Assembly (NCBI RefSeq): GCF_036248255.1
Contig: NZ_CP109178.1
Span: 2,356,001-2,420,000, forward strand
Source: Streptomyces sp. NBC_01717
GTDB lineage: Bacteria; Actinomycetota; Actinomycetes; Streptomycetales; Streptomycetaceae
Direction: 5' to 3'
DNA: 64,000 nucleotides
Program-made: the position numbers and the translations under genes
Shown here: in pieces, positions 22,955 to 44,405 of the stretch
How the letters are laid out: the number at the start of each line of letters is the position of its first letter
Position numbering within the stretch: position 1 is the first letter of the stretch
The notes under the pieces: model-generated
The model's input: only the letters and a program-made list of their open reading frames with translations
Database searches by the model: none
Told to the model about the DNA's origin: nothing

Positions 22955-23434
22955 ATGACCGCCCCAGCCCCGACCACACCGCTCACCCCGGCCGAACGGC
23001 GCATCGCCCAGCATGTGGTGAACGGCCTACCAACAGGCCAGATCGCCGACACCGAGACCCTGTCGCACCACACGGTCCGCGCGCACATGGTCTCCCTGCG
23101 CAGGAAGCTGCACTGCCCCGAACGCTGCTCCCTTGCCGTAGTCACCCACCGTCTGCTCAGCGCCAACGAGGCCACGGCCCCGGCACCGGACACGCCAGCC
23201 CCCGACTTGAGCACCGAGCAGACGAACCTGCTGAAGGCCGTCGCCGAGCACACCAAGCCGCTCGACATCGCGCGCGCCGCCAACATGGCACCGGCGGACC
23301 TCTGCGCGGCGCTCCTCCAGTTGCTCGCTGATACCGGGGCACCGGACACCACCCGGCTGGTCGCCCGGGCCCACGGCTGGAACCTGCTGACCGCCCAGCA
23401 GACCAGCACGGTGCGGAGCGGAGCGAGCAAGTGA
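22955..23434 (+). CDS. LuxR-type HTH regulator
   Basis: 159 residues. A GerE/LuxR DNA-binding domain lies at the N-terminus (LTPAERRIAQHVVNGLPTGQ, SHHTVRAHMVSLRRKLH), which is unusual because it is normally C-terminal. The second half is a small helical domain of unknown role (LSTEQTNLLKAVAEHTKPLD). There is no receiver domain. Position at the junction between conservon and biosynthetic-like genes suggests a pathway regulator. It is coupled to the HAD gene by GTGA. Confidence 0.8.
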   Translation: MTAPAPTTPLTPAERRIAQHVVNGLPTGQIADTETLSHHTVRAHMVSLRRKLHCPERCSLAVVTHRLLSANEATAPAPDTPAPDLSTEQTNLLKAVAEHTKPLDIARAANMAPADLCAALLQLLADTGAPDTTRLVARAHGWNLLTAQQTSTVRSGASK

Positions 23435-24171
23435 CCACGTCACCCGTTCCCACGGCCTCCGAGCAGTCCTCCGCGCCCCTGCACCATCGCCCGAAACCGT
23501 CGGCACTCCAGCCTCCCGATGCTGAACGGGCACTCCTTCTTGACCTGGACGGTGTCCTACTGGACACGCGGCCGGTGATGCGCGAGGCGTGGAGGAAGGT
23601 CCAGGAAGACCACGGCCTCGCTATCCCGTTCGCCGCGTACGAAGCCCACCTGGGGCGGGAGTTCAGCGACATCATGGAGCGGCTCGGTGTCGTCGACGCT
23701 GACGGCGTCCACCGGACCTACGGAGCCGGCTCGACAGCCGCAGCGCATTTGGCCCAGGAGTTCATCGGGATCACGGACGTCCTGCACGCCTTCGTGGCAG
23801 CTGGCTGGCGGCTTGGAGTCGTGACATCCAAGCACGTCGATCGGGCCGCGCCCCTCCTGGCGCAGCTTGGTTGCCCCTTCGGCACCGTGCGGACACCCGC
23901 GGGTTCCGGGCGGTCGAAGCCGGCGCCGGACCCTCTCCTCCTCGCGTTGGTGGACCTCGGAGTCGACCCTGCGTCGGCCGTGTACATCGGGGACATGCCG
24001 GTGGATCGGGAGGCAGCAACTCGTGCCGGCGTCCCCTACATTCATGCCGCCTGGGGGTACGGCGAGCCCGGCCCTCCTGCTGTGGCGGTCGCCCAGTCCC
24101 CAACCGACCTGCTCGACCTCCTCCACCAGGCCACGGCATGCACTCCCATTGTCGAAGGGAGCCTGGCGTGA
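23431..24171 (+). CDS. HAD-superfamily hydrolase (phosphoglycolate-phosphatase-like)
   Basis: 246 residues. Motif I LLLDLDGVLLDT, motif II GVVTSK, motif III Lys in SGRSKPAPDP and motif IV VYIGDMPVDREAA are all present, with a helical cap between I and II. Likely a phosphatase of a sugar phosphate or nucleotide. The first ~30 residues are a disordered extension. Starts with GTG overlapping the LuxR stop and is itself coupled to the glycosyltransferase by GTGA. First enzyme of the putative pathway. Confidence 0.85.
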   Translation: MTTSPVPTASEQSSAPLHHRPKPSALQPPDAERALLLDLDGVLLDTRPVMREAWRKVQEDHGLAIPFAAYEAHLGREFSDIMERLGVVDADGVHRTYGAGSTAAAHLAQEFIGITDVLHAFVAAGWRLGVVTSKHVDRAAPLLAQLGCPFGTVRTPAGSGRSKPAPDPLLLALVDLGVDPASAVYIGDMPVDREAATRAGVPYIHAAWGYGEPGPPAVAVAQSPTDLLDLLHQATACTPIVEGSLA

Positions 24172-26015
24172 CCACCTCGGCATTCGGAGACTTGGGCCTT
24201 GTCCGAAGAGAAGACGGCCACCGGCCCGCCTGGGTCCTAGTCGGCGCCAGCCGCTTTGACGTCGCCGACTCCCTCCGCATCAGAACGGGAGATCTGGAGG
24301 CGCTGCCGCTGAACCAGCAGGACCTCCGCTCGTTGACCGAACGCGTCATGGCCGCCCTGCACGAGTACGGCGGCGGCCGAGCCCACACGCCCGGCGGAGC
24401 TGACTGGCTCCATGTCCAGCACGTACCGGTCCGCCGACTGGTCACGCAGGTCCTGCGGAAACTGCTGGCATTGAGCCTCTGGGAGCCATTCGTCACCGCA
24501 CCCGGACCCATCACCCCGGTGCCGTACGAAGGTCTCGTCGGTGTGCGGCCGAGCAGCTCTCAGGAGTACCGCACCTACACGGTCACCTGGTCGGGCATTG
24601 CCTATCTGCTTGGCGGCACGGCGGCACACAATCCGCCGCACACTGCCGAGTTGAGCACGCTCTTACCCGCCGACGTGGCTATCACCGAGCCGCACCCGCT
24701 CCCCACGGGCCTGCACCGGGGCGGAGTCGTGGCCCTTTCTTGGTCGTCCCGCCACGCCGAGACCCTGATGCCGGTTCTTCGGGAGTTGGCGCGCAAGGGG
24801 CACGACAGCGTGCTCATCGACCTCGCCACTGATCCCGGTCAGCGCTGCTTGGCCGAGGGCAGCGAGAGCGTGCGGGTGTGTCCTGCACCGGTTGGGCTCT
24901 TCCGGCTGTCAGGCGAGACGGACGGACTGCGTCCCGCGGATGACGACCGGACCGTCGAGGTCGGTCCGCACGCGATCCGCCTGTCCCGCCTCGTCCGGTT
25001 GTTGTCCACGCTGCTGGCGATGAGCGGCGGCTGCACGCAGCCATCCTGGCCTGCTCTGGTCCAGGCGGAGAACTGGCTGGGCCGCGTTCTGAGAGCCGTT
25101 CGTCCGCACTCCGTCGTCCTCAGCAACGACACAAGTCCGCTCGGGGCGTTGGCGGTTCACCTTGCTGATCGGCACGACTCCAACACGGTGCACGTCCAGC
25201 ACGGCGCCTGGACGGAAGAGTCCGTCGCGTGGCCCGCCCTCCACAGCCGGGACGTGGTCGTGATGGGCGAGCGCGACCATCCGCTCGCCCTCGCCTGGGC
25301 CAAGCACCCGAAGAGTGAGGTGCACGTCCTGGGGCAGCCCCGCTTCGATGCCCTGGCCGCTTTGGGCCGTGGGGCACAGCGCCGGTACCTGGAAAAGCTG
25401 TTGTCGGTCGGCACACGGCGTGCCCCGTCGAAGATCGCCGTGTGGGCCTGCCAGCCCTTCCGGCCCGAGCATCTCGCCCGCCAGGCCGAACTCCTCCTCG
25501 GCGGGCTGCGGTCGGCCGGCCCGGACTGGGGACTGGTCATCGCTCCGCATCCGGCGCAGCGCGACAGCGTGTTCGCCCCGCTTCTTGAGCAGGCGACCGG
25601 TCTTCCGGTGGCCGTCGCCGACACTCGGGTTGGAGCACGCGGGTGCCTGGCCGGCGCGGATGTGGTCGCGAGCGCCTACTCGACATGCGGCATCGAAGCC
25701 GCGCTGCTGGGCGTGCCCGTCCTTGAACTTGCCGCCCCGGGCGAACGGACCCTCGGCCTGGCCGACCACGGCATCGCGCAACGGTGTGGCTCCGCGGACG
25801 AAGTCGGCATCGCCCTCGCGGAGCTGCCCCGCTCTCGCCCGCCGGCCGGAGCCGCCGATTCGGTGTGCCGGTGGCGCGGCGACAGCGCCGCCCAGGTCGC
25901 CCGCCTCATCGATCACCGCGCCACGCACCCCGAGCTGCCCTTTGACCCCCTTCACGACGATGCCCGCAGCACGCCGCCCGTGCCTGAGCAGGGCGAAGGA
26001 GTCCCAGCCTCATGA
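24168..26015 (+). CDS. GT-B-type glycosyltransferase, capsule/Kdo-transferase-like C-terminal half
   Basis: 615 residues, start GTG at 24168 overlapping the HAD stop. The N-terminal ~180 residues are not recognised. From ~185 (VVALSWSSRHAETLMPVLRE) two Rossmann-like domains follow. TVHVQHGAWTEESVAWPALH, then VVVMGERDHPL and HVLGQPRFDAL, resemble surface-polysaccharide transferases that recognise the nucleotide diphosphate or CMP-sugar. ADVVASAYSTCGIEAALLGV is the typical donor-binding helix region. With a kdsB-like gene in the same operon, a CMP-ulosonate donor is one possibility, but the donor is not shown by the sequence. Confidence 0.7.
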   Translation: MTTSAFGDLGLVRREDGHRPAWVLVGASRFDVADSLRIRTGDLEALPLNQQDLRSLTERVMAALHEYGGGRAHTPGGADWLHVQHVPVRRLVTQVLRKLLALSLWEPFVTAPGPITPVPYEGLVGVRPSSSQEYRTYTVTWSGIAYLLGGTAAHNPPHTAELSTLLPADVAITEPHPLPTGLHRGGVVALSWSSRHAETLMPVLRELARKGHDSVLIDLATDPGQRCLAEGSESVRVCPAPVGLFRLSGETDGLRPADDDRTVEVGPHAIRLSRLVRLLSTLLAMSGGCTQPSWPALVQAENWLGRVLRAVRPHSVVLSNDTSPLGALAVHLADRHDSNTVHVQHGAWTEESVAWPALHSRDVVVMGERDHPLALAWAKHPKSEVHVLGQPRFDALAALGRGAQRRYLEKLLSVGTRRAPSKIAVWACQPFRPEHLARQAELLLGGLRSAGPDWGLVIAPHPAQRDSVFAPLLEQATGLPVAVADTRVGARGCLAGADVVASAYSTCGIEAALLGVPVLELAAPGERTLGLADHGIAQRCGSADEVGIALAELPRSRPPAGAADSVCRWRGDSAAQVARLIDHRATHPELPFDPLHDDARSTPPVPEQGEGVPAS

Positions 26016-26968
26016 CCCATCTGACCGCCGACAACATCGCCGAGTTGTTCTCCGGAGCCGTCACGCTGACGAAGTCCGGCGACAAGGTCAGCCCGCGCGG
26101 CATGCCCACGCGGGAAGTCCGCGACATCCACTTGCTGCTCACGCAGCCGCGTGCCCGCCTGCTGTACGCGCCGCCGGCCAGGATCCTGAACCCGGCGTTC
26201 GCCGTGGCCGAGAGCGTCTGGCACCTGTCCGGCTCGGACGATCCGTGGATCTTCGACTACAACGCGCGGCTCCGGCAGTACGCCGATGACGGGGTGTTGC
26301 TCGGCGCGTACGGCCCCAGGATGCGGAACTGGGCCGGCAAGGTCGATCAGCTCAGCCGTGTCGTGGAGATCCTCAAGGAGGACCCCGACTCCCGCCGCGC
26401 CCTGATCCAGCTCTACGACCCGGTTCAGGACGCCGCCGGGCACAAGGACGTGCCCTGCACCCTCGGCTTCCGCTTCCATCTGCGTGCCGGCCGACTGCAC
26501 ATGGCGACCATGATGCGGGGCCAGGACGTGTGGATCGGCATGCCGTACGACGTCTTCTTCTACACCGTCCTGCACGAGCTGGTCGCCGGATGGCTCGACG
26601 CGGAGCTGGGCGAGTTCCACCTGCACGTGGGGTCGCTGCACATCTACGAGGAGCACCTCGACCAGTCCGAGCAGCTGGCCTCGCTCACGGCGAGCCCCGT
26701 CATGCCCGACCTGCGGACACCGTGGACCGGCTTCGCCGGTCTGCTCGATCAGGTCGCGGCCCGGGACGTGACCGGCCACCCCGGCTGGGACGCGATGGCC
26801 GGGACGCTGCGCAGCTACCGGCTGTGGAAGGACGGACAGCACCAGCAGGCGTGGCGCGTGGCCGACGGCATCGACGGCCCCCTCGGCCAGGCCCTCACCG
26901 CCTGGTATGGCGAGCTGAAACGACGCTCCCGCCAGCCCGCGGCTGCGACGACGGCCGGGGCGAGGTGA
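26012..26968 (+). CDS. Thymidylate-synthase homologue with Asn-to-Asp switch (cytidylate C5 methylase/hydroxymethylase-like)
   Basis: 318 residues. Catalytic Cys at ~149 in DVPCTLGF, with upstream SRRALIQLYDP. The phosphate-binding and folate region reads MMRGQDVWIGMPYDVFFYTV. In dUMP-specific thymidylate synthases this position is PFN (Asn177 in E. coli); here it is PYD with Asp at ~180. Asp is found in T4 dCMP hydroxymethylase and related CMP hydroxymethylases such as MilA of mildiomycin, because it pairs with the cytosine amino group. I infer that it methylates or hydroxymethylates C5 of CMP, dCMP or a conjugate. Coupled by ATGA to the preceding gene. Confidence 0.85.
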   Translation: MTHLTADNIAELFSGAVTLTKSGDKVSPRGMPTREVRDIHLLLTQPRARLLYAPPARILNPAFAVAESVWHLSGSDDPWIFDYNARLRQYADDGVLLGAYGPRMRNWAGKVDQLSRVVEILKEDPDSRRALIQLYDPVQDAAGHKDVPCTLGFRFHLRAGRLHMATMMRGQDVWIGMPYDVFFYTVLHELVAGWLDAELGEFHLHVGSLHIYEEHLDQSEQLASLTASPVMPDLRTPWTGFAGLLDQVAARDVTGHPGWDAMAGTLRSYRLWKDGQHQQAWRVADGIDGPLGQALTAWYGELKRRSRQPAAATTAGAR

Positions 26969-26976
26969 CGGCCGCC

Positions 26977-28695
26977 ATGAAGCGCACTCTCTCGGTCATC
27001 CTCGGCCTGTGCTCCTACACCCACGACTCGTCGGCAGCTCTCCTGGTCGACGGCGAACTCATCGGCTTCGTCGAGGAGGAGCGCCTCTCCGAGCAGAAGC
27101 ACACCAAGCTCTACCCCGCTCACGCTGTGGACTGGCTGCTCGGCCGGGCCAAGCTCACCTCAGCCGACGTGGACACTGTCGCCTACAACTTCCAGCCCGC
27201 CCGCTACCTCGCCGAGTCGCCCGCCGCCCTGCGCATGGCGCTCTCCCCGACAACTCGTGACCGGGCGTTCGCCCGAGCGCACGGGTTCGCCAAGGTGGCC
27301 GTGCGCACCCAGCGGCGCCTGCGGCTGATCGGCAGGCAGTTCCCCGCCGCCCGTGTTACCCCGGTGCTGCATCACCGCGCCCACCAGCTCACGGCCTTCG
27401 CCGCCTCGGGCTGGGACGAAGCCGCCGTGCTCGTGGTCGACAGCCTCGGCGAGCGGCAGACCACCACCATCGCCCGCTGCCACGACACGCTCCGTCCCCG
27501 CGCGCAGACCCTAGAGGCGATCAACGACCCAGCCTCCCTGGGGTACGTGTACGGCGCCGTCACCGAGCACCTGGGCTGGCGCCGGGGCGACGAGGAGGGC
27601 ACCGTGATGGCGCTGGCCGCCCTCGGCGACCCCGCTCGCTTCCGCTCCCTCTTCACCCACGCCGTCCACACGACCGCAACCGGCTTCCGCATCAACCCCG
27701 CCTACTTCCCCACGCGCACCCTCACGTCGGGATACGAGCGGACGTCCCGCCGTTTCGTCACCGAGACCTGCCCCGAACGGCACCCGGGCGAGTCCCTGGC
27801 CGACGTCCATCGGGACCTGGCGGCGGCTCTCCAGGAGCGGACCGAGCAGGTCATGGTGCACCTGGCCCGCCGCGCTCGCGTGCTCACCGGCTCCCGGCGC
27901 CTGTGCGTGGCGGGCGGTGTCGCCACGAACTGCGTGAGCATCGGCCGGATCATCGAGGCCGGCATCTTCGACGAGGTCTTCGTGCCTCCTGCGCCCGGTG
28001 ACGCCGGTACCGCGATCGGCGCCGCCCTCGCCGTGCATATCGGCGGACGCAGCCCGCGACCGGTGGCCGGCGTCGCCCGCACCTGCTACCTCGGCCCGTC
28101 CTACGAGGACCAGGCCCTCGACCTCACGCCCTGGCCCGCCCTTCACCAGAAGACCCTGGGCATCGAAACCGCAGAGTTCCTCGCCGACCAGCTGGCCCAC
28201 GGCACGATCGTCGGCCTGTTCCAGGGGCCCGTCGAAGCCGGGCCGCGAGCCCTGGGCAACCGTTCGATCCTCGCCTCTCCGCTGGAGCCCGGCGTCGTCG
28301 AGCGGCTGAACGCCACCGTGAAGTTCCGCGAGCCGTTCCGGCCCTTCGCCCCCATGGTCCTGGCCGAGCGCGCCCGCGAGTTCTTCACCCTCGGCCAGCA
28401 GGCGCCGTACATGTCCATGGCCTCCGGCGTGACCGACAAAACGCGCGAGCGCATGCCGGCCATCGTGCACGCCAACGGCACCTCCCGCCTGCAGACCGTC
28501 ACCAAGGCGCAGAACCCGTTCATGCACGCGGTCCTGACCGCCTTCGGCCGCCGGACCGGGGTGCCCGTGCTGATCAACACGTCCCTCAACGTCAAGGGCA
28601 AGCCGATCTGCGGAACACCGGAAATGGCCCTGGATTGCCTGGCCAACTCCGGGCTCGACGCCCTGCTCCTCGAAGGGCGGTGGATCACAAAGTGA
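26977..28695 (+). CDS. NodU/TobZ-family O-carbamoyltransferase
   Basis: 572 residues. Transfers a carbamoyl group from carbamoyl phosphate via carbamoyl-AMP to a hydroxyl, as in TobZ, NovN and PolO. N-terminal Kae1-like part has HDSSAALLVDGELIGFVEEE and ERLSEQKHTKLYP, then HHRAHQLTAFAASGWDEAAV with the metal-binding histidines. C-terminal YrdC-related part has EAGPRALGNRSILASP, KFREPFRPFAPMVL and VLINTSLNVKGKPI. ATG at 26977 has GAGGTGA 8 nt upstream; GTG at 26965 overlapping the previous stop is an alternative. Being directly next to the TS homologue, it could carbamoylate the hydroxymethyl group that enzyme makes. Confidence 0.9.
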   Translation: MKRTLSVILGLCSYTHDSSAALLVDGELIGFVEEERLSEQKHTKLYPAHAVDWLLGRAKLTSADVDTVAYNFQPARYLAESPAALRMALSPTTRDRAFARAHGFAKVAVRTQRRLRLIGRQFPAARVTPVLHHRAHQLTAFAASGWDEAAVLVVDSLGERQTTTIARCHDTLRPRAQTLEAINDPASLGYVYGAVTEHLGWRRGDEEGTVMALAALGDPARFRSLFTHAVHTTATGFRINPAYFPTRTLTSGYERTSRRFVTETCPERHPGESLADVHRDLAAALQERTEQVMVHLARRARVLTGSRRLCVAGGVATNCVSIGRIIEAGIFDEVFVPPAPGDAGTAIGAALAVHIGGRSPRPVAGVARTCYLGPSYEDQALDLTPWPALHQKTLGIETAEFLADQLAHGTIVGLFQGPVEAGPRALGNRSILASPLEPGVVERLNATVKFREPFRPFAPMVLAERAREFFTLGQQAPYMSMASGVTDKTRERMPAIVHANGTSRLQTVTKAQNPFMHAVLTAFGRRTGVPVLINTSLNVKGKPICGTPEMALDCLANSGLDALLLEGRWITK

Positions 28696-29744
28696 AGATC
28701 GGATACAGCTTCTGGGGCTTCCTCGGCAACGGGGTCACCGACACCCCGGACGGGGGACGCAGCCACCGCCGCCCCTTCATCGACGCCCTCATCGCCCACG
28801 GTCACGACATCGTCTTCCTGCAGGCCGACCGCGACCGCCTCGAAGCGGGCGAGGACCTCGGCGGCGCGTACACCTTCGACGACGGCGTTCCGCACATCGA
28901 CGCCCTGTTCCTGGAGTGGCGCTGGGCGATCCCCGGCCGCAACACCACCATGTGCGGGAGCGAGGGGCACACCTGCGACCTTCACCGCCAGGCCCAGCTC
29001 ATCAACCACTACACCGTGCGGCACCAGACACCCACTGTGATCTGGGACAAGGACCGCACCCTGCGAGCCGAGAGCGTGTGGCGCACCACGTCGCACACCC
29101 GCGTCTGCGAGGCCGCCCTCGCCCCGACCCACGGAGCGCACTCGCTACTCTTCCCCGTCGCCGAGAACCTCCTCACCCAGGCGGACCCCGTGGCCCTCGC
29201 GGCACAGCGGCGGGACCTCGTGCTCGGCTACGTGGGCAACCAGTACGACCGCGACGAGCCCTTCGACCGCTTCTTCGCCCCAGCCGCCGCCCGCGTCGAG
29301 CACCTGGTCGCCGGGAAGTGGACGGAGACCAACCGCTGGCCGCACGTCCACTTCCTGGGCCGGATCCCGTTCGAGGCCGCCGCCGGCGTATACGGCAGGT
29401 CCCTGGCCACGGTGCTCATGCTGCCCGAGCGGTACGCCGCCGTCGGGCAGATGACCCAGCGCATCTTCGAGGCCGTGCTCGCCGGGTGCCTGCCCCTGGC
29501 CCCGGCGGACATCCGCTACGTCAACCGGTTCGTCCCGGACGAGCTGGTCGTGCGCTCCGGCCGGGACGTGATCGAACGCCTCTCCCACCTCCGCGAGATC
29601 GCCGGCACCCAGCAGCACGCCGACCTGATCGCCGCGTGCGTGGACCGTCTGCGCCTGTTCGGCCTGAGCAAGCAGGTCGACACCCTGGAATCCCTTCTGC
29701 ACGGTCTCGTGAGGCCGGGCACGACCGAGCGGGGAGCTGCCTGA
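28692..29744 (+). CDS. Glycosyltransferase-like GT-B protein
   Basis: 350 residues, GTG start overlapping the carbamoyltransferase stop. N-terminal motif IGYSFWGFLGNGVTDTPDGG contains the Gly-rich loop near the start of GT-B enzymes. The C-terminal half has LVLGYVGNQYDRDEPFDRFF, VHFLGRIPFEAAAGVYGRSL and QRIFEAVLAGCLPLAPADIR, the last being the usual Glu-containing donor-binding region. Specificity unknown. It has many homologue-like features of CgeB/DUF3880-type transferases, but I cannot place it in a numbered family. Confidence 0.7.
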   Translation: MKIGYSFWGFLGNGVTDTPDGGRSHRRPFIDALIAHGHDIVFLQADRDRLEAGEDLGGAYTFDDGVPHIDALFLEWRWAIPGRNTTMCGSEGHTCDLHRQAQLINHYTVRHQTPTVIWDKDRTLRAESVWRTTSHTRVCEAALAPTHGAHSLLFPVAENLLTQADPVALAAQRRDLVLGYVGNQYDRDEPFDRFFAPAAARVEHLVAGKWTETNRWPHVHFLGRIPFEAAAGVYGRSLATVLMLPERYAAVGQMTQRIFEAVLAGCLPLAPADIRYVNRFVPDELVVRSGRDVIERLSHLREIAGTQQHADLIAACVDRLRLFGLSKQVDTLESLLHGLVRPGTTERGAA

Positions 29745-29840
29745 TGCCGACCGCTCTACAGGCCATGGCGCCTGGATCATCAAAACGTGTCCTGGAGGAT
29801 GGCTCCGCCGGACACCCGAACCTCTCTACGCTGGAGCACC

Positions 29841-30350
29841 ATGAAGAAGGTCGCCATCGTCGGCTGCGGAGGCAGCGGCAAATCCCACGTGGCCCGCGAA
29901 CTGGGCAAGATCCTCGACGCCCCGGTGACGCACCTGGACGCCGCGTTCTACGACGACGAGTGGAACGCGCTCCCCATGGACAAGTTCACCGCCGTGCAGC
30001 GCGAGCTGGTCGCGCAACAGCGGTGGGTGATCGACGGCAACTACAACTCGACGCTGCAGGTGCGGCTCGAAGCCTGCGACACGGTGGTCCTGATGGACGT
30101 GTCGACCGTGGCGGCGCTGTACGGGATCTTCGCCCGGCAGATCCGGCACGGCGCGGGACACAAGGGCAACGGGGTGCACAACCGCATCCACTGGGGCGTG
30201 ATCAAGTACGTCGCCACGTACCGCCGCAAGATGCGGCCCCGCGTGATGGCGAAGATCGAGGAGTTCGGCGCGAAAGCCGACGTGGTGCTGCTGGCCAACC
30301 GGCGCCAGACGCGCCGCTGGCTGCGGAAGGTGGCCGCCGAGCAGTCCTGA
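29841..30350 (+). CDS. P-loop kinase, adenylate-kinase-like (topology-modulation-protein family)
   Basis: 169 residues. Walker A is VAIVGCGGSGKSHVARELG (residues ~4-22), followed by LDAAFYDDEWNALPMDKF and VIDGNYNSTLQVRLEACDTV, the usual arrangement in small nucleotide or sugar kinases annotated as AAA or FlaR-like. Probably phosphorylates a small molecule; substrate unknown. The 96-bp gap before it is the largest break so far in the block. ATG at 29841 with GGAG eight bases upstream. Confidence 0.75.
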   Translation: MKKVAIVGCGGSGKSHVARELGKILDAPVTHLDAAFYDDEWNALPMDKFTAVQRELVAQQRWVIDGNYNSTLQVRLEACDTVVLMDVSTVAALYGIFARQIRHGAGHKGNGVHNRIHWGVIKYVATYRRKMRPRVMAKIEEFGAKADVVLLANRRQTRRWLRKVAAEQS

Positions 30351-35667: not shown

Positions 35668-35671
35668 TTCC

Positions 35672-36220
35672 GTGCCCCCTTCCGTACAGCACATCCGCGC
35701 CATCACCGAGACGTACCTCTCCCGGTACCCGCACGAACGCGACGGGCTGGCTCCACTCTTCACCGCACTCGCCGGCGACGACGATCCCACGAGCCGCAAA
35801 ACGTTCCCGGCCCACGTGACCTGCAGCGCCATCCTCCTCGACCACGACAAGAGGATCCTCCATATCCACCACAAGGCTTCCGGGAAGGTCCTCGCTCCCG
35901 GGGGCCACAACGAGGCAGAGGACCCCGACCTCCCCACTGCGGCGCTGCGCGAACTCCACGAAGAAGCCGGCATCCCGCCGAGCGCCGTTGTCGCTCTTCC
36001 CGGATTCGCAGACATCCCTTTCGACATCGACGTTCACGCGATCGACGCAAACCCGTCCAAGGGCGAGCCCGATCACAAGCACATCGATTTCCGCTGGATC
36101 TTCCGCCTCCGTTCGGAGCACGACGTGACCTTGCAAACCGCGGAGGTGGGCGGCTACGAATGGCGCCCCTTCACCGAGGCCGCCGCGCCCACGGTCCGCA
36201 CCAAACTCGCCCTTCTCTGA
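35672..36220 (+). CDS. Nudix hydrolase
   Basis: 182 residues. Nudix box GGHNEAEDPDLPTAALRELH followed by EEAGI; the spacer before REL is one or two residues longer than the GX5EX7REUXEEXGU consensus, a form common in this subfamily. Probably hydrolyses a nucleoside diphosphate linked to another group. GTG start four bases after the SAH-hydrolase-like gene, so tightly coupled. Confidence 0.82.
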   Translation: MPPSVQHIRAITETYLSRYPHERDGLAPLFTALAGDDDPTSRKTFPAHVTCSAILLDHDKRILHIHHKASGKVLAPGGHNEAEDPDLPTAALRELHEEAGIPPSAVVALPGFADIPFDIDVHAIDANPSKGEPDHKHIDFRWIFRLRSEHDVTLQTAEVGGYEWRPFTEAAAPTVRTKLALL

Positions 36221-37321: not shown

Positions 37322-37480
37322 ATGCCCCGCCAGATGATCGCCATTGGCGCGCACACCACGCTCGAATTCCATGCGCCCGTGCGCCTCGGACCTCCGCCTG
37401 GAGCCTGTCCCCCTCATCCCTGTGCGCCCGTCGGCGCTACGGAGCGCCTCGGAGCAGCATCCGAGGAGGCGTTCGCGTGA
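37322..37480 (+). CDS. 52-aa small protein of unknown function
   Basis: Starts at ATG 37322 with an excellent GAGGAGG five bases upstream, and its stop overlaps the GTG of the next Nudix gene (GTGA). The sequence begins MPRQMIAIGAHTTLEFHAPV and contains a Cys-rich turn GACPPHPCAPVG. No family recognised. It may be a small subunit, a translational-coupling leader, or a peptide substrate; the last idea is speculative. An upstream in-frame ATG (37223) lacks a ribosome binding site. The remaining interval 37091-37321 shows no gene. Confidence 0.5.
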   Translation: MPRQMIAIGAHTTLEFHAPVRLGPPPGACPPHPCAPVGATERLGAASEEAFA

Positions 37481-37944
37481 GGGACCGCTACACCAGCATC
37501 GTCGACGTGCTCATGCTCCCGTACCGCCAGGACGGACGGATGCCGCTTCTACGGCGTGCACAAGATCAGTACGCGCCCGGACAACTCACAGTGGTGGGAG
37601 GCCACTTGGAGGAGGGCGAGTCGCCTCTGGAAGGGGCGATCCGGGAGGCCGAGGAGGAGCTGGGGATCCGGATCAGCCCCCACGACGCCGAGTTCTGCGG
37701 GCTATTCCAGTTCGTCGCGGCAGACGGTTCTCGGCGGCTCGGGACGGCCTGGGTAACGCGCTCCTGGGAAGGAACCCCGACGAATAGCGAGCCCGACAAG
37801 CACTCGGAGCTCCTGTGGGCCGAACCCGGCGACCCGCCCCAGGACTGTCACCCCTACACCCAGGGCGTGCTCCGCCACTTCGTCGAAGGGACCCTGTACG
37901 CCGTTATCAAAGCCGACCCCACCACTGCGGGTGACGCCGCATGA
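37477..37944 (+). CDS. Nudix hydrolase
   Basis: 155 residues. Perfect Nudix box, GHLEEGESPLEGAIREAEEE then LGI. N-terminal strands SIVDVLMLPYRQDGRMPLLR are typical. GTG start with GAGGAGG eight bases upstream. Coupled to the ABC transporter by ATGA. Confidence 0.88.
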   Translation: MRDRYTSIVDVLMLPYRQDGRMPLLRRAQDQYAPGQLTVVGGHLEEGESPLEGAIREAEEELGIRISPHDAEFCGLFQFVAADGSRRLGTAWVTRSWEGTPTNSEPDKHSELLWAEPGDPPQDCHPYTQGVLRHFVEGTLYAVIKADPTTAGDAA

Positions 37945-39923
37945 GGCTTCTGCGCCGTCCCCGAGTGGAGGAGCCCAAGGTCTCCCGTTCCGAACAGGAG
38001 CTGTTCGGAGGACCGCTTCGCTATGACATGGGGTGGACCGAACACGAGCACGCTCGGCTCGAGTTGACGCTATGGAGCGCACTTCGTTCCATGCCCCGGC
38101 AGGTGTGGGGCACACTGCGGCGAGCCTGGCGGGCCGACCGGGGCGCTCTGCTGAGCGTCGGCGCCTGCGAGATCGGCCAGGGCATCGTCGCCGCGGTGAA
38201 CCTCCTCGTCCTCAACGCAGTGATGCATGCACTGCTCGGCGCGGGCAGCCCGGCGGACCGCCTCGACGCGGCGCTGCCGGCGATGCTCGTCGGGGCAGGC
38301 GCGGCCGTGGTCAATTCAGGTCTGGCCAGTTGGTCAACATCGCGCGCCGGCCGTCTGGAGCCACTCGTCGAGCGGATCGCCACGACGGAGTACCTGGACG
38401 CGGCGCAGGCCGTCGAGCTGGAGGCGATCGAGGACCCAGCCTTTCGCCGGCTGCTCGACGTGGCCTACTACGGCCCCACGTACGCGCGCCGCATGATCTC
38501 CACCTGCGTCGCCGGCCTGAACAGCATGATCGGGCTCATCTCCACGGCCGGCATCCTGCTCGTGCTGCACTGGGCTCTCATCCCGATGCTGCTGCTGATC
38601 GTGGCCCCCCGGGGCTGGGGCGCCATGAGGGTGGCGCAGCGGCGCTACGTGTCGGTGCTGAACTGGGTCGAGCACCTGCGGGCCAGTCGTCTCATCGGCA
38701 ACCTGCTGACCGAGCGCAGCGCCGCCCAGGAGGTGCGTCTGCACGGTGTGGGCCCTTATCTGCTGGCGCGCTACCGGGACATGGCCGAGAACGCGGAGGA
38801 GGAACAGCAGCGGCTGGCCAACGGGAAGGCGGCGACCGAGTTGCTGGCGCAGGCGATGTCTGGCATCGCGACAGCGGCGACCTATGCGGTGATGTTCTGG
38901 CTGGTCACGGGCGGGCAGATGAGCCTGGCCGTCGCCGGCACGGCGGTGTTCGCCATCCGCTCCGGCTCGGCCAGCCTCGGCGCCCTCGTGATGAACGTCA
39001 ACGACCTGCACGAGGAGTCGTTGTACGTGCAGGATCACGAGCGCTTCCTCGTCGAGGCAGCCCGGCGCACCATTCCGGACGGCGGGGATGACCTGCCGGA
39101 GCGGGTCGACGCGATCGTGCTGGAGCAGGTCGGCTACCGCTATCCCGACCGGGATGAACCGGCCCTGGACAAGGTGTCGTTGACTCTTCCCATGGGCAGC
39201 GTGACTGCCGTGGTCGGCGACAACGGCGCGGGCAAGTCCACGCTAGTGAAGATCATTAGCGGCCTCCTGGTCCCGACCACCGGCTCGGTCTCCTGGGGCG
39301 GATCCCCGGTCACCCAGCTCAACCGCTTCAAGCTCTTCGAGCGGGTTGGGCAACTGACACAGGACTTCCAGCGGTGGCCGATGACCGCCTCGATGAACAT
39401 TCGGATCGGCCGTCCCCACCGCACCTCCACCGATGAGGAGTTGAATCCATCGGTGCGCTTCGCGGGTGCAGCGTCGGTGCTCGACAAACTCCCGGAGGGG
39501 CTCAACACGCTGCTGGCCCGCATGTTCCGAGGTGCGACCGAACTGTCCGGCGGAGAGTGGCAGAAGGTCGGTCTGGCGCGGTCGCATTGGCGCACCGAGA
39601 CCTCCACCGCGGACAGCCTCCTCATCGTCGATGAGCCCACCTCCGCCCTGGACCCCGAGGCCGAGATCCGTACCTTCGACCGCATCCGAGAGCTGGCCGC
39701 GCCCCACCGGGCCGTGGTGCTGGTGACACACCGCATGTCCGGCGTGCGGTGGGCCGATCAGATCTACGTCCTGAACAACGGGCACGTCGCCGAGCACGGC
39801 ACCCATGACGAGCTGATCGAAGCGAACAAGCAATACGCATCCATGTTCCGCGCCCAGGCCGCCCAGTACGCCCCCGTCCTGCCCCGCCCCGCCCGGCCCA
39901 CGGCCGCCTCCGAGTCCGCCTGA
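37941..39923 (+). CDS. ABC exporter, fused permease and ATPase
   Basis: 660 residues. About five or six membrane helices lie in residues ~70-350 (for example LISTAGILLVLHWALIPMLL). The nucleotide-binding domain follows with Walker A VGDNGAGKSTLVKII, signature ELSGGEWQKVGLARS, Walker B SLLIVDEPTSALD and H-loop VLVTHRMSGV. Half-transporters of this build dimerise and export peptides, lipids or small products. Its position in the operon suggests export of the product or self-resistance. Confidence 0.92.
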   Translation: MRLLRRPRVEEPKVSRSEQELFGGPLRYDMGWTEHEHARLELTLWSALRSMPRQVWGTLRRAWRADRGALLSVGACEIGQGIVAAVNLLVLNAVMHALLGAGSPADRLDAALPAMLVGAGAAVVNSGLASWSTSRAGRLEPLVERIATTEYLDAAQAVELEAIEDPAFRRLLDVAYYGPTYARRMISTCVAGLNSMIGLISTAGILLVLHWALIPMLLLIVAPRGWGAMRVAQRRYVSVLNWVEHLRASRLIGNLLTERSAAQEVRLHGVGPYLLARYRDMAENAEEEQQRLANGKAATELLAQAMSGIATAATYAVMFWLVTGGQMSLAVAGTAVFAIRSGSASLGALVMNVNDLHEESLYVQDHERFLVEAARRTIPDGGDDLPERVDAIVLEQVGYRYPDRDEPALDKVSLTLPMGSVTAVVGDNGAGKSTLVKIISGLLVPTTGSVSWGGSPVTQLNRFKLFERVGQLTQDFQRWPMTASMNIRIGRPHRTSTDEELNPSVRFAGAASVLDKLPEGLNTLLARMFRGATELSGGEWQKVGLARSHWRTETSTADSLLIVDEPTSALDPEAEIRTFDRIRELAAPHRAVVLVTHRMSGVRWADQIYVLNNGHVAEHGTHDELIEANKQYASMFRAQAAQYAPVLPRPARPTAASESA

Positions 39924-39944
39924 CCAGCCCTCCGAAGGAGCATC

Positions 39945-40901
39945 GTGTCCTTTCAGTCCACCGACACCGTGCACAGCCCCGGCCACGCGGAACTACTCCG
40001 TGGAAGTGGCACCGCCGCGCTTCTCGTCAACGACAGCGGTGAGTACCTGCTGCACCTGCGCGCGGCTAACAAGCCAATCTGGCGCGCCGGCCACTGGTGT
40101 CTGCTCGGAGGCCGCCTCGACGCTGGAGAGAGCAACGACGACTGCATCAGGCGTGAACTACAGGAGGAGATCGGTCTTGTCGTAGAGGACCTCGTCCCGT
40201 TCCGGACCCGGGACACCGTCGATGCCAACGGTGTCCTGACCAACCGTGTGCATGTCTACCTCGGCACGCTCAACCGGGCCGTCCACGAGATCGAACTACG
40301 CGAAGGCATCCAGTTGCGGTGGACGCGCATCGACGAGACGGCCGAGATGACGATGGACCCCGCCACCATGGCGACCCTCGACGAACATCGACGCCTTCCA
40401 CAGCCCCTCCTCGACGGCTCGGGCATGCCCGCGATCGTGAAGGTGACGGAGCCGGACGAGCACCGAGATCGCAGCATCGTCGGAGCGCATCTCGTCCTTG
40501 TACGCGACGGCGCGGTGCTGCTCGGCCAACGCCACCCCGACAGCGCCTTCGCTCCCGGCGCCTGGCATCTGCCGGCCGGACACCGAGAGGCCGGCGAGTC
40601 TGCCCTGGCCTGCATGGTCCGCGAAACGGCCGAGGAGGCCGGGCTCACCATCGCCGCTGAAGATCTCCGCCTGGCCCACACCCTGGATCTCCTCGATCCC
40701 GGCAGCTCCACGTCGCGTATCCAGCTGTTCTTCACCGCCTCCCGTTGGAGCGGCGAGCCGCGCGTGCTCGAACCCGAGCGGTGCACCCAGTGGCGGTGGT
40801 GGCCGCTCGACGCCCTGCCCGAGTCCCTCGTGGAGTACACCCGCGTCGCGCTGCGAGCTATCGCCCGCGACGAGCCGTACACGGCGATGGGGTGGAGCTG
40901 A
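39945..40901 (+). CDS. Tandem Nudix protein
   Basis: 318 residues with two complete Nudix domains. Box 1 is GRLDAGESNDDCIRRELQEE (then IGL); box 2 is GHREAGESALACMVRETAEE (then AGL). Both keep all catalytic residues. Tandem Nudix proteins are uncommon. GTG start with GAAGGAG seven bases upstream. Substrates unknown. Confidence 0.88.
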   Translation: MSFQSTDTVHSPGHAELLRGSGTAALLVNDSGEYLLHLRAANKPIWRAGHWCLLGGRLDAGESNDDCIRRELQEEIGLVVEDLVPFRTRDTVDANGVLTNRVHVYLGTLNRAVHEIELREGIQLRWTRIDETAEMTMDPATMATLDEHRRLPQPLLDGSGMPAIVKVTEPDEHRDRSIVGAHLVLVRDGAVLLGQRHPDSAFAPGAWHLPAGHREAGESALACMVRETAEEAGLTIAAEDLRLAHTLDLLDPGSSTSRIQLFFTASRWSGEPRVLEPERCTQWRWWPLDALPESLVEYTRVALRAIARDEPYTAMGWS

Positions 40902-40978
40902 CCCATCCCTCAACGGCCCCGCCGTTCCGACCCTGCTGGCTATGGCCGACGCCTCTCCAGCCACCCCTCAAAGGAAGG

Positions 40979-43330
40979 ATGTGCCACTCGTTGTTCACCT
41001 CGCAGGATGAATGGAACAGCGGTTATGCCGAGGGACGCCGCTACCGGCCTCTCGACAAGGACGAGCGCACGTTGCTCGCCCAGCACGTGCCCGCTTCCGA
41101 TGGAGGCCGAGCACTCGACGTGGGGTGCGGGACCGGCGAACTCGCCCTGCACCTGGCCTCCATGGGCTACGCCGTCGACGCCGTGGACTGGGCCGACGCC
41201 GCCTTCCCCAGCACCGACGCGCACCCGGAAGACCCCTCGCACGGAGCCGTTCGCTGGCTGCACCTGGACATCGAGCGCGCCAACCTCTCGAAACTGCACG
41301 CAGACGGCTACGACCTGGTCGTCCTGCGGATGGTGTTCGCGTTCCTGCGCGACCGCACGCGCCTGACCCGCACGCTGGGCCGGCGGCTACGCAAGCACGG
41401 TGCCCTCGTCGTCATCACACCGCTCGCCGCGACCACCCCCGCCGAGCGCCGGGGCATCGCCCTCGACGAGGACGAGGTCGCGCACCTGATGAGCATGTGG
41501 GAGCAGGCACAGCGCTTCGACGCGAACGGGATGGCCGTCCTGGTCCTGCGCGGGCTGAAGAAGCCCGCCGTCCAGATCACGAACACCACTCTCCCGCAGT
41601 CGAGTTCGGTGACCGCGGTGCACGTCGTGGGCACCGACGCCCTGGGGCGCGTTCTGCTGGGGCGCTCGCAACAACAGGAGTGGGAGCTGCCCGGCGCCAT
41701 GGCCGAGCCCGGGGAAGGATTCGAGCAGACTGCGGTGCGCGCCCTGGCCGAGCAGACCGGCGTGATGGCCGATCCGGCCGACGCGCACGTCCTCGGACTG
41801 CACCTCGATGCCCCGGACGGCCTCTTGCGTACGAGCGTGGTGGTCCGCGTCACGTCTCACACCGGGCAGGCCCAGCTGCTGAAGCCGAACCGGTTCGGGC
41901 ACGTGGACTGGCGACCGCTGCACACCCTGCACCGTCTGGACCGGCTGCCAGCCACCTCAGCGCGGGCGCTGGACCTGGTCTGGCCGGGAGTCCTTCCGTA
42001 CGTGCCGTCCGCGCACGCCTATCCGGTCGACAACAGCTGCCCGCCGGTGCCCGGCGAGCCGCCAGAGGCGATCGAGCGACGCGAGCAGATGGCTGACCGG
42101 GTCATTGCCGGCGCCTGGGCCCCCTCCCCGCCGATCCAGCAAGCGCTCCGCTCGGTCCCGCGGCACCGCTTCACCCCCGAGAGCCCTTTGCGGACCGCGT
42201 ACCACAGCAACCTGGCCGTGGTCACCGAGTACAACGACCTCGCTCAGGTGACCAGTTCCGTGTCTGCGGCCTGGCTCCAGGCCGACATGGCGGAGCACCT
42301 GCATCTGGCCGAGGGGATGACGGTATTCGAGGGAGGCTCGGGCGGCTACAACGCCGAACTGATCGCACACGTCGTCGGGCCGACCGGCCGCGTGATCACC
42401 GTCGACCTCGCGCCGTATGTCGTGCGCCGCACGCGGCGGCTGACCGCCGAGGCCGGCAGCGGTCGCGTCACAGCGGTGCTCGGCTCTGCCAGCGACGGCG
42501 CCGTCGAGCACATGCCCCGCGGGGGTTTCGATGCTGCGGTAATTACTTACAACTGCTGGGATATCGCTCCCGCTTGGCGTGACCAGCTCGCCGACGGCCG
42601 CTATCTCGTCCTCCCACTGGAAGTCCATGACTACACCCGCGCCATCGCCTTTCAAAAGCACGGCCCGGTGCTGCGTGCTACGGACTTCACGTTCTGTGGG
42701 TTCATCCGCGACCGCGGGCCCGCGGCCCGCGCCGTCCCCGCCGTCGACCTCGCCGACGGCGAACTGCAGCTCCGTTTCCCCGACGGCGTCCCCGCCGAGA
42801 CCACCGGTCTGGACGATGCCCTCGCTGGCCCTCGCCACGAAGTGGCCACCGGCGTGACCGTGGCAGGCAACGAGTCGTTCGAGACCCTGCAGCTCTTCCT
42901 CGCCACCACGCTGCCCGGCTTCAGCCGCCTCGCCCGCAACCGTGATCAGAGCAGTGGCATCACCGCGCTGCCCAAGGGCTCGGACGCCGCCGCGATCACA
43001 GCGGCCGGCTCCCTCGCCTACCTGACCCACGTCCTGGTCCAGGACGGCCCCACGGCCGAACAGCGCCGCTCGGAGTTTCTGGCTCACGGCTTCGGGCCAT
43101 CCGGGCCTGCTCTGGCCGAACAGCTCACCTTCGCCGTGCGTCGCTGGGACGTCCACGAACGAGCCCACGGCTACCCCCAGTTGGAGGTTCATCCCACCGG
43201 AACCCCTGACACCGAACTACCCGCAGGCCACGTGCTGGACAAGACCCACAACCGGCTCGTGTGGACGTGGCGCTCCGACACCGCCGACGCCCCGGCCGCG
43301 CATGCAGAGAAGGTGAGCGCCCATGACTGA
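40979..43330 (+). CDS. Three-domain methyltransferase-Nudix-PCMT-like protein (FxLD-system-type methyltransferase)
   Basis: 783 residues. Residues ~1-190 are a class I methyltransferase (ALDVGCGTGELALHLASMGY). About 200-330 is a Nudix fold with a broken box (AMAEPGEGFEQTAVRALAEQ, with Glu to Ala and Glu to Gln changes), so probably not hydrolytic. About 355-783 resembles protein-L-isoaspartate O-methyltransferase (SVPRHRFTPESPL, FEGGSGGYNAELIAHVVGPT, VITVDLAPYVVRRTRR), the architecture named for the FxLD lanthipeptide system. No lanthionine dehydratase or cyclase is present. The start is unsure: ATG 40979 abuts AAGGAAGG; TTG 40991 is better spaced. It overlaps the next gene by 8 nt. Confidence 0.8.
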   Translation: MCHSLFTSQDEWNSGYAEGRRYRPLDKDERTLLAQHVPASDGGRALDVGCGTGELALHLASMGYAVDAVDWADAAFPSTDAHPEDPSHGAVRWLHLDIERANLSKLHADGYDLVVLRMVFAFLRDRTRLTRTLGRRLRKHGALVVITPLAATTPAERRGIALDEDEVAHLMSMWEQAQRFDANGMAVLVLRGLKKPAVQITNTTLPQSSSVTAVHVVGTDALGRVLLGRSQQQEWELPGAMAEPGEGFEQTAVRALAEQTGVMADPADAHVLGLHLDAPDGLLRTSVVVRVTSHTGQAQLLKPNRFGHVDWRPLHTLHRLDRLPATSARALDLVWPGVLPYVPSAHAYPVDNSCPPVPGEPPEAIERREQMADRVIAGAWAPSPPIQQALRSVPRHRFTPESPLRTAYHSNLAVVTEYNDLAQVTSSVSAAWLQADMAEHLHLAEGMTVFEGGSGGYNAELIAHVVGPTGRVITVDLAPYVVRRTRRLTAEAGSGRVTAVLGSASDGAVEHMPRGGFDAAVITYNCWDIAPAWRDQLADGRYLVLPLEVHDYTRAIAFQKHGPVLRATDFTFCGFIRDRGPAARAVPAVDLADGELQLRFPDGVPAETTGLDDALAGPRHEVATGVTVAGNESFETLQLFLATTLPGFSRLARNRDQSSGITALPKGSDAAAITAAGSLAYLTHVLVQDGPTAEQRRSEFLAHGFGPSGPALAEQLTFAVRRWDVHERAHGYPQLEVHPTGTPDTELPAGHVLDKTHNRLVWTWRSDTADAPAAHAEKVSAHD

Positions 43331-44405
43331 ACCGGCACCCGACCAGGTCGAGCCACAGCACGGGCTGGGCCTGTACGAGCGCTACTACGCCCAGGTGGAA
43401 TCCGGCCGCAAGACCATCGAAGTCCGGGTGCGCACACCCCGGATGACGGACGTCTCGGTCGGCGACGTGCTCGTATTCCACGGCGAGGACTCCGGCCGCG
43501 AACTCGGCGTAAGGGTCGCGCGGATCACGCCGCACGCCTCGTTCGCCGAGCTGCTCGCCGCGGAGGACACCTCCCGCATCGACCCTGACGCCACAGAGGC
43601 CGAGCAGCTCGCCAACCTGCGCCGCATCTACCCACCAGAGAAGGAGGCCCTGGGACCGCTCGCGATCGAGTTCGACCACCGGCCGGCACTCGCGGGGCAG
43701 CCGATGCCCGTATCCCCCGAGGCATACGTACAGACCGTTCCGCACCACACGGTGTACAGCTGCTTCTACGTACGCGACGACCGCGATCGGCCCGTCATGC
43801 TGCGTTCGGTGTACGGCGGTCGACCCTGGCAGTTTCCAGGCGGGAACAGTGACGCCGGCGAGGATCCCCTGCAGACCGCGCGCCGCGAAACGGCCGAGGA
43901 AACCGGGCTCGAGCTCGGCCAGGGCCAACCCCGTCTGCTGCTCACGCACTACCTGCACCCCGGGCCCCGCTGGCCCATGGGCAAGATCGGCTTCATCTTC
44001 GACGGCGGCAGCCTCACCCCTGAACAGCTGCGGCAGATTCGCCTCGCCCCGGCAGAGCACGACATGTGGGCGATCCACGGCCTCGACGAGTGGCGACCTC
44101 TGCTGGCCGAGGGAGCGTTCGCCCGCCTGGAGGCCATCGAGCGGGCCCGCACCGGCCTCGCCACCCAGGGACTCGGCGTGTCGATGGCCTCGGTGGCCCG
44201 CGAGGCCGACGTCGGCAAGGCCACCCTGTCCCGCCGCTTCGCCACCCGCGAAGACCTCATCACTGCCGTCTTCGCCGACCGCATGGACGCCTACGCCACC
44301 GCCGTCACCGAAGCCCTCGCCGACCCCGACCCCTGGCACGGCTTCACCGGCTACATCCACGCCGTCTGCGCCATGCGGGCCGCCGACGCTTCGCCGACGT
44401 GCTGA
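43323..44405 (+). CDS. ASCH-Nudix protein fused in frame to a truncated TetR HTH
   Basis: 360 residues. Residues ~10-115 form an ASCH-like domain (LYERYYAQVESGRKTIEVRV, GDVLVFHGEDSGR). About 130-270 is a Nudix domain with a perfect box (GNSDAGEDPLQTARRETAEE then TGL). From ~272 the chain becomes a TetR-family HTH (SMASVAREADVGKATLSRRF, REDLITAVFADRM), closely matching the intact TetR encoded at 46315-47031. It ends at a premature stop caused by a frameshift at about 44387. The Nudix C-terminus has therefore been replaced by part of a TetR gene. Whether the chimera functions is unknown. Confidence 0.8.
   Translation: MTEPAPDQVEPQHGLGLYERYYAQVESGRKTIEVRVRTPRMTDVSVGDVLVFHGEDSGRELGVRVARITPHASFAELLAAEDTSRIDPDATEAEQLANLRRIYPPEKEALGPLAIEFDHRPALAGQPMPVSPEAYVQTVPHHTVYSCFYVRDDRDRPVMLRSVYGGRPWQFPGGNSDAGEDPLQTARRETAEETGLELGQGQPRLLLTHYLHPGPRWPMGKIGFIFDGGSLTPEQLRQIRLAPAEHDMWAIHGLDEWRPLLAEGAFARLEAIERARTGLATQGLGVSMASVAREADVGKATLSRRFATREDLITAVFADRMDAYATAVTEALADPDPWHGFTGYIHAVCAMRAADASPTC

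Follow-up and report, generated by a model that had tools for sequence, protein, structure and literature searches.

A widespread, probably mobile Streptomyces gene cluster with a candidate route to a carbamoylated, glycosylated 5-hydroxymethylcytidine nucleotide

Introduction

Few routes are known that lead onward from hydroxymethyl-cytidylate: those to mildiomycin and bacimethrin (PMC4081090, in its accessible part), and also the modification of phage DNA. Here we describe a gene cluster of Streptomyces sp. NBC_01717, contained in 64,000 nucleotides (nt) of contig NZ_CP109178.1 (positions 2,356,001 to 2,420,000, forward strand; hereafter the window, in which all coordinates are given). We consider it moderately probable that the cluster encodes an uncharacterised pathway, widespread and probably mobile, whose product is a carbamoylated and glycosylated nucleotide of 5-hydroxymethylcytidine. 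Such chemistry, in which a cytidine building block would first gain a hydroxymethyl group and then a carbamoyl group and sugars, has its other known examples in a fungicide and in bacterial viruses.

MilA, a member of the thymidylate synthase (TS) family, is the CMP 5-hydroxymethylase of mildiomycin biosynthesis. According to the accessible part of PMC5175136, Ala176 and Lys133 give MilA its preference for CMP, and Ser and Arg in their place turn the enzyme to dCMP. Asp at TS position 177 serves as a marker of cytosine substrates, and a phage carbamoyltransferase, encoded on a contig together with a TS homologue, produced 5-carbamoyloxymethylcytosine when given DNA, RNA, 5hmdCTP or 5hmCTP (both from the accessible part of PMC8670742).

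Results

Gene calling by codon use placed a run of plus-strand genes at 15862-44731, with the genes of the unit described here from 23431 onward, and families were called from Pfam, NCBIfam and PDB scans of the window proteins. The conserved unit comprises 14 genes at 23431-37090, all on the plus strand, in the order had-gtA-ts-carb-gtB-kin-mt-aph1-hisP-aph2-epi-sahh-nud1-kdsB. Junctions within it are short gaps, with 4-nt overlaps at 5 of 13 (gene starts as given below). A 386-nt gap lies directly 3' of kdsB, and a simple scan of this interval (sigma-70-type sites only) found neither terminator nor promoter. Genes from 37477 on are found in 0-2 of 28 other TS-positive genomes, as against 16-28 of 28 for those before the gap. 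Because of the gap and this drop in conservation we distinguish two units, the 14 conserved genes and an accessory unit, in place of the single operon of about 20 genes and 21 kb, mostly joined by 4-nt overlaps, that the original prediction had drawn. The scans did bear out nearly all of the families it had named, and they confirmed the haloacid dehalogenase (HAD) phosphatase, TS homologue, O-carbamoyltransferase, glycosyltransferases, histidine phosphatase, MoeE5-like epimerase, S-adenosylhomocysteine hydrolase (SAHH)-like protein, KdsB, six Nudix domains, ABC exporter and methyltransferase trifusion (Methyltransf_25, Nudix and PCMT), as well as their common direction.

Two surveys describe the conservation of the unit. 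In the first, the SAHH-like protein was searched in a named genome collection; the best 80 of 88 stretches with a relative gave 79 distinct loci, in which every window protein was sought by tblastn and counted at 50% identity over half of the query (had, beyond the 10-kb flank, was out of view). Among these loci, gtA was present in 35, ts and carb in 38 each, gtB, kin, mt, aph1 and kdsB in 39 each, hisP in 40, and aph2 and epi in 41 each. The genes from gtA through kdsB, nud1 sometimes included, lie at near-constant spacing in many Streptomyces species, and one of the 38 ts loci, with a partial gene set, belongs to Asanoa siamensis (L068). All twelve tested genes occur together in 36 of the 79 loci, and in 36 of 36 their order and strand are identical, which is far beyond chance.

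The second, less query-biased survey took ts as the query against 392 genomes of the genus (E 1e-40), and the other positive genomes were scored at 40% identity and 40% coverage. The gene was found in 29 of the 392, our own included. The 28 others carry gtA and ts in 28, carb and gtB in 27, had and kin in 24, aph1 in 23, epi in 22, mt in 21, hisP and aph2 in 20, sahh in 18, kdsB in 17 (one broken) and nud1 in 16. Among the groups of neighbouring genes listed up- or downstream, none occurs in more than 8 of the 29 genomes (mostly 0.4-2 kb of upstream sequence was covered). The two sets are not independent, having at least 8 TS sequences in common. A recurrent syntenic set across Streptomyces, named beforehand as the test of a single pathway, is what the 79-locus, 28-genome and order analyses all revealed.

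Pairwise distances for the twelve genes, taken over the 36 loci and the window, correlate at 0.75-0.96 (ts-sahh, r 0.95; ts-epi, 0.89; ts-kdsB, 0.84), and for each of these three pairs 0 of 999 permutations gave a value as high. The permutations ignore shared species ancestry, and the correlations therefore indicate co-travel, not function. For had through kdsB, the view that the region is a chance mosaic of unrelated genes is already contradicted by the shared gene order and strand and by the correlated divergence seen across 36 loci; this view is largely true of 37477-44405, absent from most other cluster genomes, and as an account of the whole it is hardly credible. Our best reading overall, in which we place moderate confidence, is that the 14 genes form one horizontally moving biosynthetic unit. 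Between one locus (L028) and the window, identity is 69-78% for mt, aph1, aph2 and epi and 85-98% for the other eight tested genes (96-98% for gtA through carb), a patchwork that suggests recombination, as if parts had been swapped between clusters.

The ts product (26012..26968, +) is a candidate cytidylate 5-hydroxymethylase of the TS family. Its closest PDB protein is MilA (119.7 bits; the best thymidylate synthase scores 80.4 bits) and its closest phage family is PHROG 5131 (194 bits), with 30-36% identity to phage proteins among the matches listed (25 of 2550 records). Catalytic Cys149 is present in 57 of 57 distinct homologues and the cytidylate-type Asp180 in 56 of the 56 readable ones, so that the protein joins a TS fold and catalytic Cys to Asp, rather than Asn, at TS position 177. 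Residues associated with ribo or deoxy substrates are mixed: Arg128 occurs in 57/57 homologues, Gly170 in 53/56 and Ser170 in 3/56 (G014, G235 and G336). The enzyme would convert (d)CMP and methylene-tetrahydrofolate to 5-hydroxymethyl-(d)CMP.

The adjacent carb gene (26977..28695, +) encodes a full-length O-carbamoyltransferase with both Carbam_trans domains (N-terminal 152 bits, C-terminal 211 bits, Pfam). In PDB it is closest to the decarbamoylnovobiocin carbamoyltransferase (278 bits), followed by GdmN (269-271 bits) and TobZ (235-240 bits). It scores 345 bits against PHROG 1601 and is 26-31% identical to phage proteins among the matches listed (20 of 141). The novobiocin enzyme, its closest solved relative, acts on a sugar, and by analogy carb could equally do so; it would carbamoylate either the 5-CH2OH group, as the phage enzyme does, or a sugar, as in novobiocin and moenomycin. 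The activity of the phage carbamoyltransferase (PMC8670742, accessible part) is the strongest outside support for a cytidine substrate. The invariant Cys and Asp, MilA as the closest solved relative and the match to this phage activity together support the C5-modified, carbamoylated cytidine nucleotide that was one of the two products first proposed.

A further TS homologue, 33% identical to ts, is found on the S. salivarius plasmid pSaLI10 (L141, at about 33-44 kb of the record), near genes for a P-loop kinase, PqqD, a phosphotransferase, a CYTH protein and an ABC transporter. This set is possibly a different, unstudied TS-based pathway. Its kinase has no meaningful similarity to kin (16.9 bits, E 0.18).

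Three genes point to sugar transfer. The gtB product (28680..29744, alternative start 28635, +; PF13524) is a predicted GT-B glycosyltransferase, with a mean predicted local distance difference test score (pLDDT) of 80.5 for the best model and 56-80.5 over five models. Its top Foldseek match is the T4 DNA beta-glucosyltransferase (4e-10), with a glycosyltransferase of another kind at 2e-9; VIA ties the T4 enzyme with BshA, and in a profile search of PDB up to E 5 the T4 enzyme was the sole protein met, weakly, at E 0.058. The T4 enzyme glucosylates hydroxymethylcytosine, and we treat the modelled kinship of gtB to it as a lead only. The gtA product (24168..26015, +; AlphaFold2 mean pLDDT 85) has a predicted GT-B part of the UDP-GlcNAc 2-epimerase/MurG-like kind in residues 183-592 (Foldseek and VIA); residues 1-182 fall outside the matches, the VIA lists covering residues 183-592 only. 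Its profile found no match among PDB sequences up to E 0.1, and it weakly matches the surface-carbohydrate model TIGR04396 (E 8.8e-5). The epi product (33516..34514, +), an NDP-sugar epimerase, is probably a UDP-glucuronate 4-epimerase, since among solved structures it comes nearest to MoeE5 (252 bits), with the 6zl6 epimerase second (227 bits), and we take both to catalyse UDP-glucuronate 4-epimerisation. It may supply a UDP-sugar, such as UDP-galacturonate, for gtB and/or gtA to attach.

Phosphoryl transfer is represented by five genes. The kin product (29787..30350, start possibly 29841, +) is a P-loop kinase of the 'DNA topology modulation' type, resembling nucleoside monophosphate kinases, that scores 160 bits against NF005994, under the cut-off of 215. 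Two kinases of the aminoglycoside phosphotransferase (APH) type, aph1 (31224..31991, +) and aph2 (32641..33477, +), had been said to flank the histidine phosphatase hisP (31988..32644, +; His_Phos_1, 97 bits). Pfam gives neither a match at E<=0.01, and the assignment stands on catalytic-loop motifs read by eye: KDSNPRN (K142-D143-x-N-P-R-N) with D161-x-D163 in aph1, invariant in at least 97% of 39 loci, and HLDYQPxN (H178-x-D180-x-x-P-x-N) with D196 in aph2, invariant in at least 97% of 41 loci; aph2 also has a weak CotS match (E 0.0055). Against PDB, aph1 had no match up to E 0.1 and aph2 weak matches only, the best to a MAP kinase (E 0.014). The kin and aph1 products would phosphorylate the nucleotide or the sugar. 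The fifth gene, had (23431..24171, alternative start 23578, +; HAD_2, 82 bits), encodes a HAD-family phosphatase. Additionally, mt (30382..31227, +) encodes a class I S-adenosylmethionine-dependent methyltransferase (Methyltransf_25, 83 bits). Upstream, and overlapping had by 4 nt, is a gene for a LuxR-type regulator (22955..23434, +; GerE, 40.7 bits); a LuxR-like open reading frame precedes the cluster in 5 of 28 other TS-positive genomes (mostly just 0.4-2 kb of upstream sequence covered), and we regard this gene as facultative.

The PHROG matches of ts and carb and the leaning of gtB toward the T4 enzyme would also fit hypermodification of nucleic acid, in which 5-hydroxymethyl-dCMP would be raised to the triphosphate by the kinase and built into DNA, perhaps of a mobile element, with carb and gtB decorating it as in phages. 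The deoxy-type residues agree with this, Arg128 being universal and Ser170 the residue of the three clusters that diverge most, as do the relaxase-type mobile elements that adjoin the cluster in some genomes. Position 170 is nonetheless Gly in nearly all homologues, and the scanned cluster proteins include no DNA polymerase and no recognised dCTPase, although nud1 could be one. Furthermore, epi, sahh, kdsB, mt and the APH-like kinases would have no obvious role, and a scan of 10 of the unit's 14 proteins found no match to a PADLOC defence family. We give this explanation a slim chance.

The sahh gene (34546..35667, +; AdoHcyase_NAD, 65 bits) encodes an SAHH-like NAD-dependent enzyme, and nud1 (35672..36220, +; NUDIX, 46.6 bits) its Nudix hydrolase partner. 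In 68 aligned SAHH-like proteins at least 95% keep the glycines that bind NAD, along with residues equivalent to His55, Asp131, Glu156, Lys186 and Asp190 of SAHH, where numbering and roles are those of human SAHH, by our assignment. The equivalent of His301 is Ser in this family. Opposite the GHPSF segment, which binds adenine in SAHH, the alignment shows VG-x-Y/F-I, and the protein stops short of full length, features that set it apart from true SAHH; a regular SAHH gene is present elsewhere in the genome.

The two genes recur as a pair. A Nudix homologue lies within 300 nt of the SAHH-like gene, on the same strand, in 63 of the 79 loci (33 of 38 with ts and 30 of 41 without), at 300-1500 nt in 7, and none was seen in 9; in L080 the two matches overlap. 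Four of the 41 ts-negative loci are Streptomyces cluster loci without visible ts (L051, L056, L058 and L081). The Nudix-box Glu residues are kept in 67-68 of 70 nud1 relatives. In six metagenomic loci (L084, L087, L092, L094, L097 and L106), from Bacteroidetes, Planctomycetota, Deltaproteobacteria and one unclassified bacterium, a single reading frame of 554-591 aa fits both proteins; the Nudix box of L087 looks degenerate. HD-domain proteins stand beside the SAHH-like gene in some loci and on Lactiplantibacillus plasmids. An L. plantarum plasmid (L143) carries a cassette of a major facilitator superfamily transporter, an HD-domain protein and the SAHH-like gene, and 40 Lactiplantibacillus plasmid records contain an SAHH-like match.

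Since the pair recurs across phyla, without the cluster and sometimes in one frame, it is probably a two-enzyme nucleotide module that was recruited into the cluster. We infer that it carries out an NAD-dependent reaction on some nucleoside that is not adenosylhomocysteine: the SAHH-like enzyme would most likely oxidise a ribose-type 3'-OH with bound NAD and act at C4' or C5' of a non-adenosine nucleoside, and the Nudix enzyme would prepare or clear the nucleotide. The proposal of a built-in, six-domain Nudix detoxification found no support, as only one of the six domains belongs to the conserved unit, and that one is paired with the SAHH-like protein, also where the cluster is absent. Conceivably the pair and the phosphatases degrade a modified nucleotide and the whole cluster is catabolic, a repair or salvage role that would suit both the pair's occurrence alone or in one frame in several phyla and the HD protein that replaces or joins the Nudix protein in some loci. 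This is very unlikely, as the most constant genes (hydroxymethylase, carbamoyltransferase and glycosyltransferases) look anabolic and the three most divergent clusters lack the pair.

The last gene of the unit, kdsB (36254..37090, gene-caller start 36434, +), encodes a member of the CMP-sugar synthetase family, with 183 bits against 1gq9 and 258 bits against NF009905 (cut-off 255). This strong family match favours the second product first proposed, a CMP-ulosonate glycoconjugate, in which KdsB would activate a 3-deoxy-ulosonate that gtA and gtB place on a surface polymer, ts and carb adding side decorations; the GT-B part of gtA with its weak TIGR04396 match, and NeuB in the same genome, speak for it too. 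The KdsA family (PF00793), the partner expected for 3-deoxy-D-manno-octulosonate (KDO), is however absent from this genome; elsewhere in the genus it occurs in 1 of 16 kdsB-positive genomes and in 2 of 16 that are cluster-negative. NeuB is found in 15 of 16 genomes of either group. With the KdsA family missing and NeuB equally common without the cluster, KDO is unlikely and a nonulosonate unlinked. In addition, kdsB is less well conserved across the clusters than ts, carb or gtB. We therefore rejected the ulosonate glycoconjugate as the leading view and consider it unlikely. KdsB may instead join a cytidylyl group to an acid other than KDO.

Natural variants of the cluster bear on the carbamoylated cytidylate pathway that we favour. 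G014 and G235 have gtA-ts-carb-gtB-kin-aph1-epi, G235 additionally having had and a kdsB with a stop, and G336 has the same seven genes plus mt. G307 lacks only sahh-nud1; G129, G333 and G198 lack kdsB at the cluster site; the clusters of G016, G338, G264, G116 and G191 end early. Conversely, L051, L056 and L081 have the 3' part alone, though upstream sequence is covered, and L058 is cut by the contig start. We considered whether short clusters are artefacts with a hidden second half and dismissed this for most, because searches elsewhere in genomes with short clusters for sahh (10 genomes), kdsB (12) and epi (6) mostly found nothing. For sahh, the finds were G158 and a 57% copy in G014, on a separate contig; for kdsB, they were G307 and two pieces in G235, one of them interrupted by an internal TGA; epi turned up in G158 only; and G129 has a 73-residue kdsB fragment about 63 kb from its cluster. 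In G158, where ts is in two frames, the sahh and epi coordinates on the second contig equal those of L058, so that this cluster is probably just split by contig ends. As the short clusters keep these genes and searches elsewhere mostly found nothing, a plausible core pathway consists of gtA, ts, carb, gtB, kin, aph1 and epi, shared by the three most divergent clusters, and we take mt, hisP, aph2, sahh, nud1, kdsB and usually had as an extension.

The accessory unit (37477..44405, +) encodes a Nudix protein, an ABC exporter, a double Nudix protein, a methyltransferase-Nudix-PCMT fusion of the FxLD type and an ASCH-Nudix-TetR protein; by family scans the six Nudix domains of the region are at 35672, 37477, 39945 (two), 40745 and 43323. 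The fusion scores 337.1 bits against TIGR04364 (cut-off 320), which identifies an FxLD methyltransferase domain. Frames below 160 aa at 36900-48000 of the window, and in L028 or L032 from 12300 on, contained no F-x-L-D peptide, no curated precursor model having been run. Close copies of the accessory unit occur in L028 and partly in L032. Because distant homologues (43-44%) of the double Nudix protein also lie downstream of the cluster in L052, L055, L056 and L058, a loose functional tie is possible; from its distribution we class 37477-44405 as a separate, facultative neighbour. At 43323-44731 the ASCH-Nudix protein ends in a TetR DNA-binding domain and the TetR C-terminal part follows in another frame with a 7-nt overlap, which may be a split gene, a frameshift or a sequencing error.

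Further downstream, 52067-62904 holds HTH_36, WhiB, NikA-like, MobA/VirD2-type relaxase and DUF317 genes of a mobilisable element. In G307 and G338, too, the cluster is followed by homologues of several of these genes; among the 79 loci, the WhiB-type gene follows it in 13, and the groups neighbouring that gene do so in 10-16. Mobilisable elements are thus a probable means by which the cluster spreads. On the upstream side, 15862-22930 contains a GH15 gene and then a conservon-type set (HATPase, Roadblock, DUF742 and ATP-binding protein) that includes two genes for P450s. The window genes at 12983 (TrmO-like) and 13556 have relatives directly upstream of had in G016, and this block may therefore separate genes that were once adjacent. 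A tRNA with a four-base anticodon called by ARAGORN at 13852-13948, inside the opposite-strand gene 13556-14944, is probably spurious.

Discussion

The pathway proposed here for a carbamoylated, glycosylated 5-hydroxymethylcytidine nucleotide draws on conserved gene order, correlated distances, family membership and catalytic residues, all established by sequence comparison. Our confidence in each later step is much less than in the general pathway; the final product and the roles of the SAHH-like, Nudix and KdsB proteins, in particular, are what we infer from these families, and the substrate may be either ribo or deoxy. The natural short and long versions of the cluster order the pathway steps, and the substrate of the cross-phylum SAHH-like/Nudix pair could be learned from this pathway.

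A bolder proposal, and a long shot, is a non-phage bacterial route to hypermodified cytidylate (5-hydroxymethyl, carbamoyl and glycosyl) in which a modified CTP acts as currency, either loaded onto an acid by KdsB or entering nucleic acid. The seven-gene clusters with Ser170 would work on dCMP, and the full clusters with Gly170 would have switched to CMP as they gained the SAHH-like, Nudix and KdsB proteins. If true, this would mean that the modified base ends up in a nucleotide-sugar or in a nucleic acid.

As far as open papers show, the cluster is undescribed: no description was found in the open-access PMC literature, judged from titles and the starts of abstracts among the matches listed, with MIBiG, antiSMASH-DB and subscription papers lying outside. 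Routine cluster finders may miss it, because no polyketide synthase (PKS) or nonribosomal peptide synthetase (NRPS) domain is present among the scanned cluster proteins. Its entry enzyme is nevertheless carried by 29 of the 392 sampled genomes of the genus. We place it with the biosynthetic clusters for nucleosides and nucleotides.

Among described systems, moenomycin sugar tailoring includes a carbamoyltransferase and a methyltransferase. The Streptomyces cluster is similar in having both alongside epi, whose closest solved relative is MoeE5; it differs in that no prenyl-chain enzymes are found among its scanned proteins and in its additional cytidylate hydroxymethylase. We know of no polyoxin counterparts for cluster genes other than ts and carb; the polyoxin pathway has a TS-like protein, PolB, one absent from the text of PMC4029187. 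Polyoxin is likewise a nucleoside antibiotic with carbamoylation, for which the accessible part of PMC4029187 gives PolO as the carbamoyltransferase. Polyoxin itself is uridine-based and carbamoylated on its amino acid part.

The phage 5-hydroxymethylcytosine carbamoyltransferase system shares with this cluster a TS homologue on the same contig, with Asp at TS position 177 (PMC8670742, accessible part). The Streptomyces cluster differs in that it lies on the chromosome, adds 12 genes to this pair and has no genes for replication. The mildiomycin system (MilA-MilB-MilC) is similar in its entry by TS-family cytidylate hydroxymethylation, its use of a UDP-uronate and its LuxR-type regulator (PMC11784345 and PMC5175136, accessible parts). 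In contrast, a MilB-type nucleotide hydrolase (PF05014) appears neither in the cluster scans nor in the genome, and KdsB, the kinases and the carbamoyltransferase are additional in Streptomyces; 'carbamoyl' and 'homocysteine' have 0 occurrences in the main text of the mildiomycin paper. Taken together, the entry steps of the cluster resemble known nucleoside and phage cytosine chemistry, and the remaining steps depart from it.

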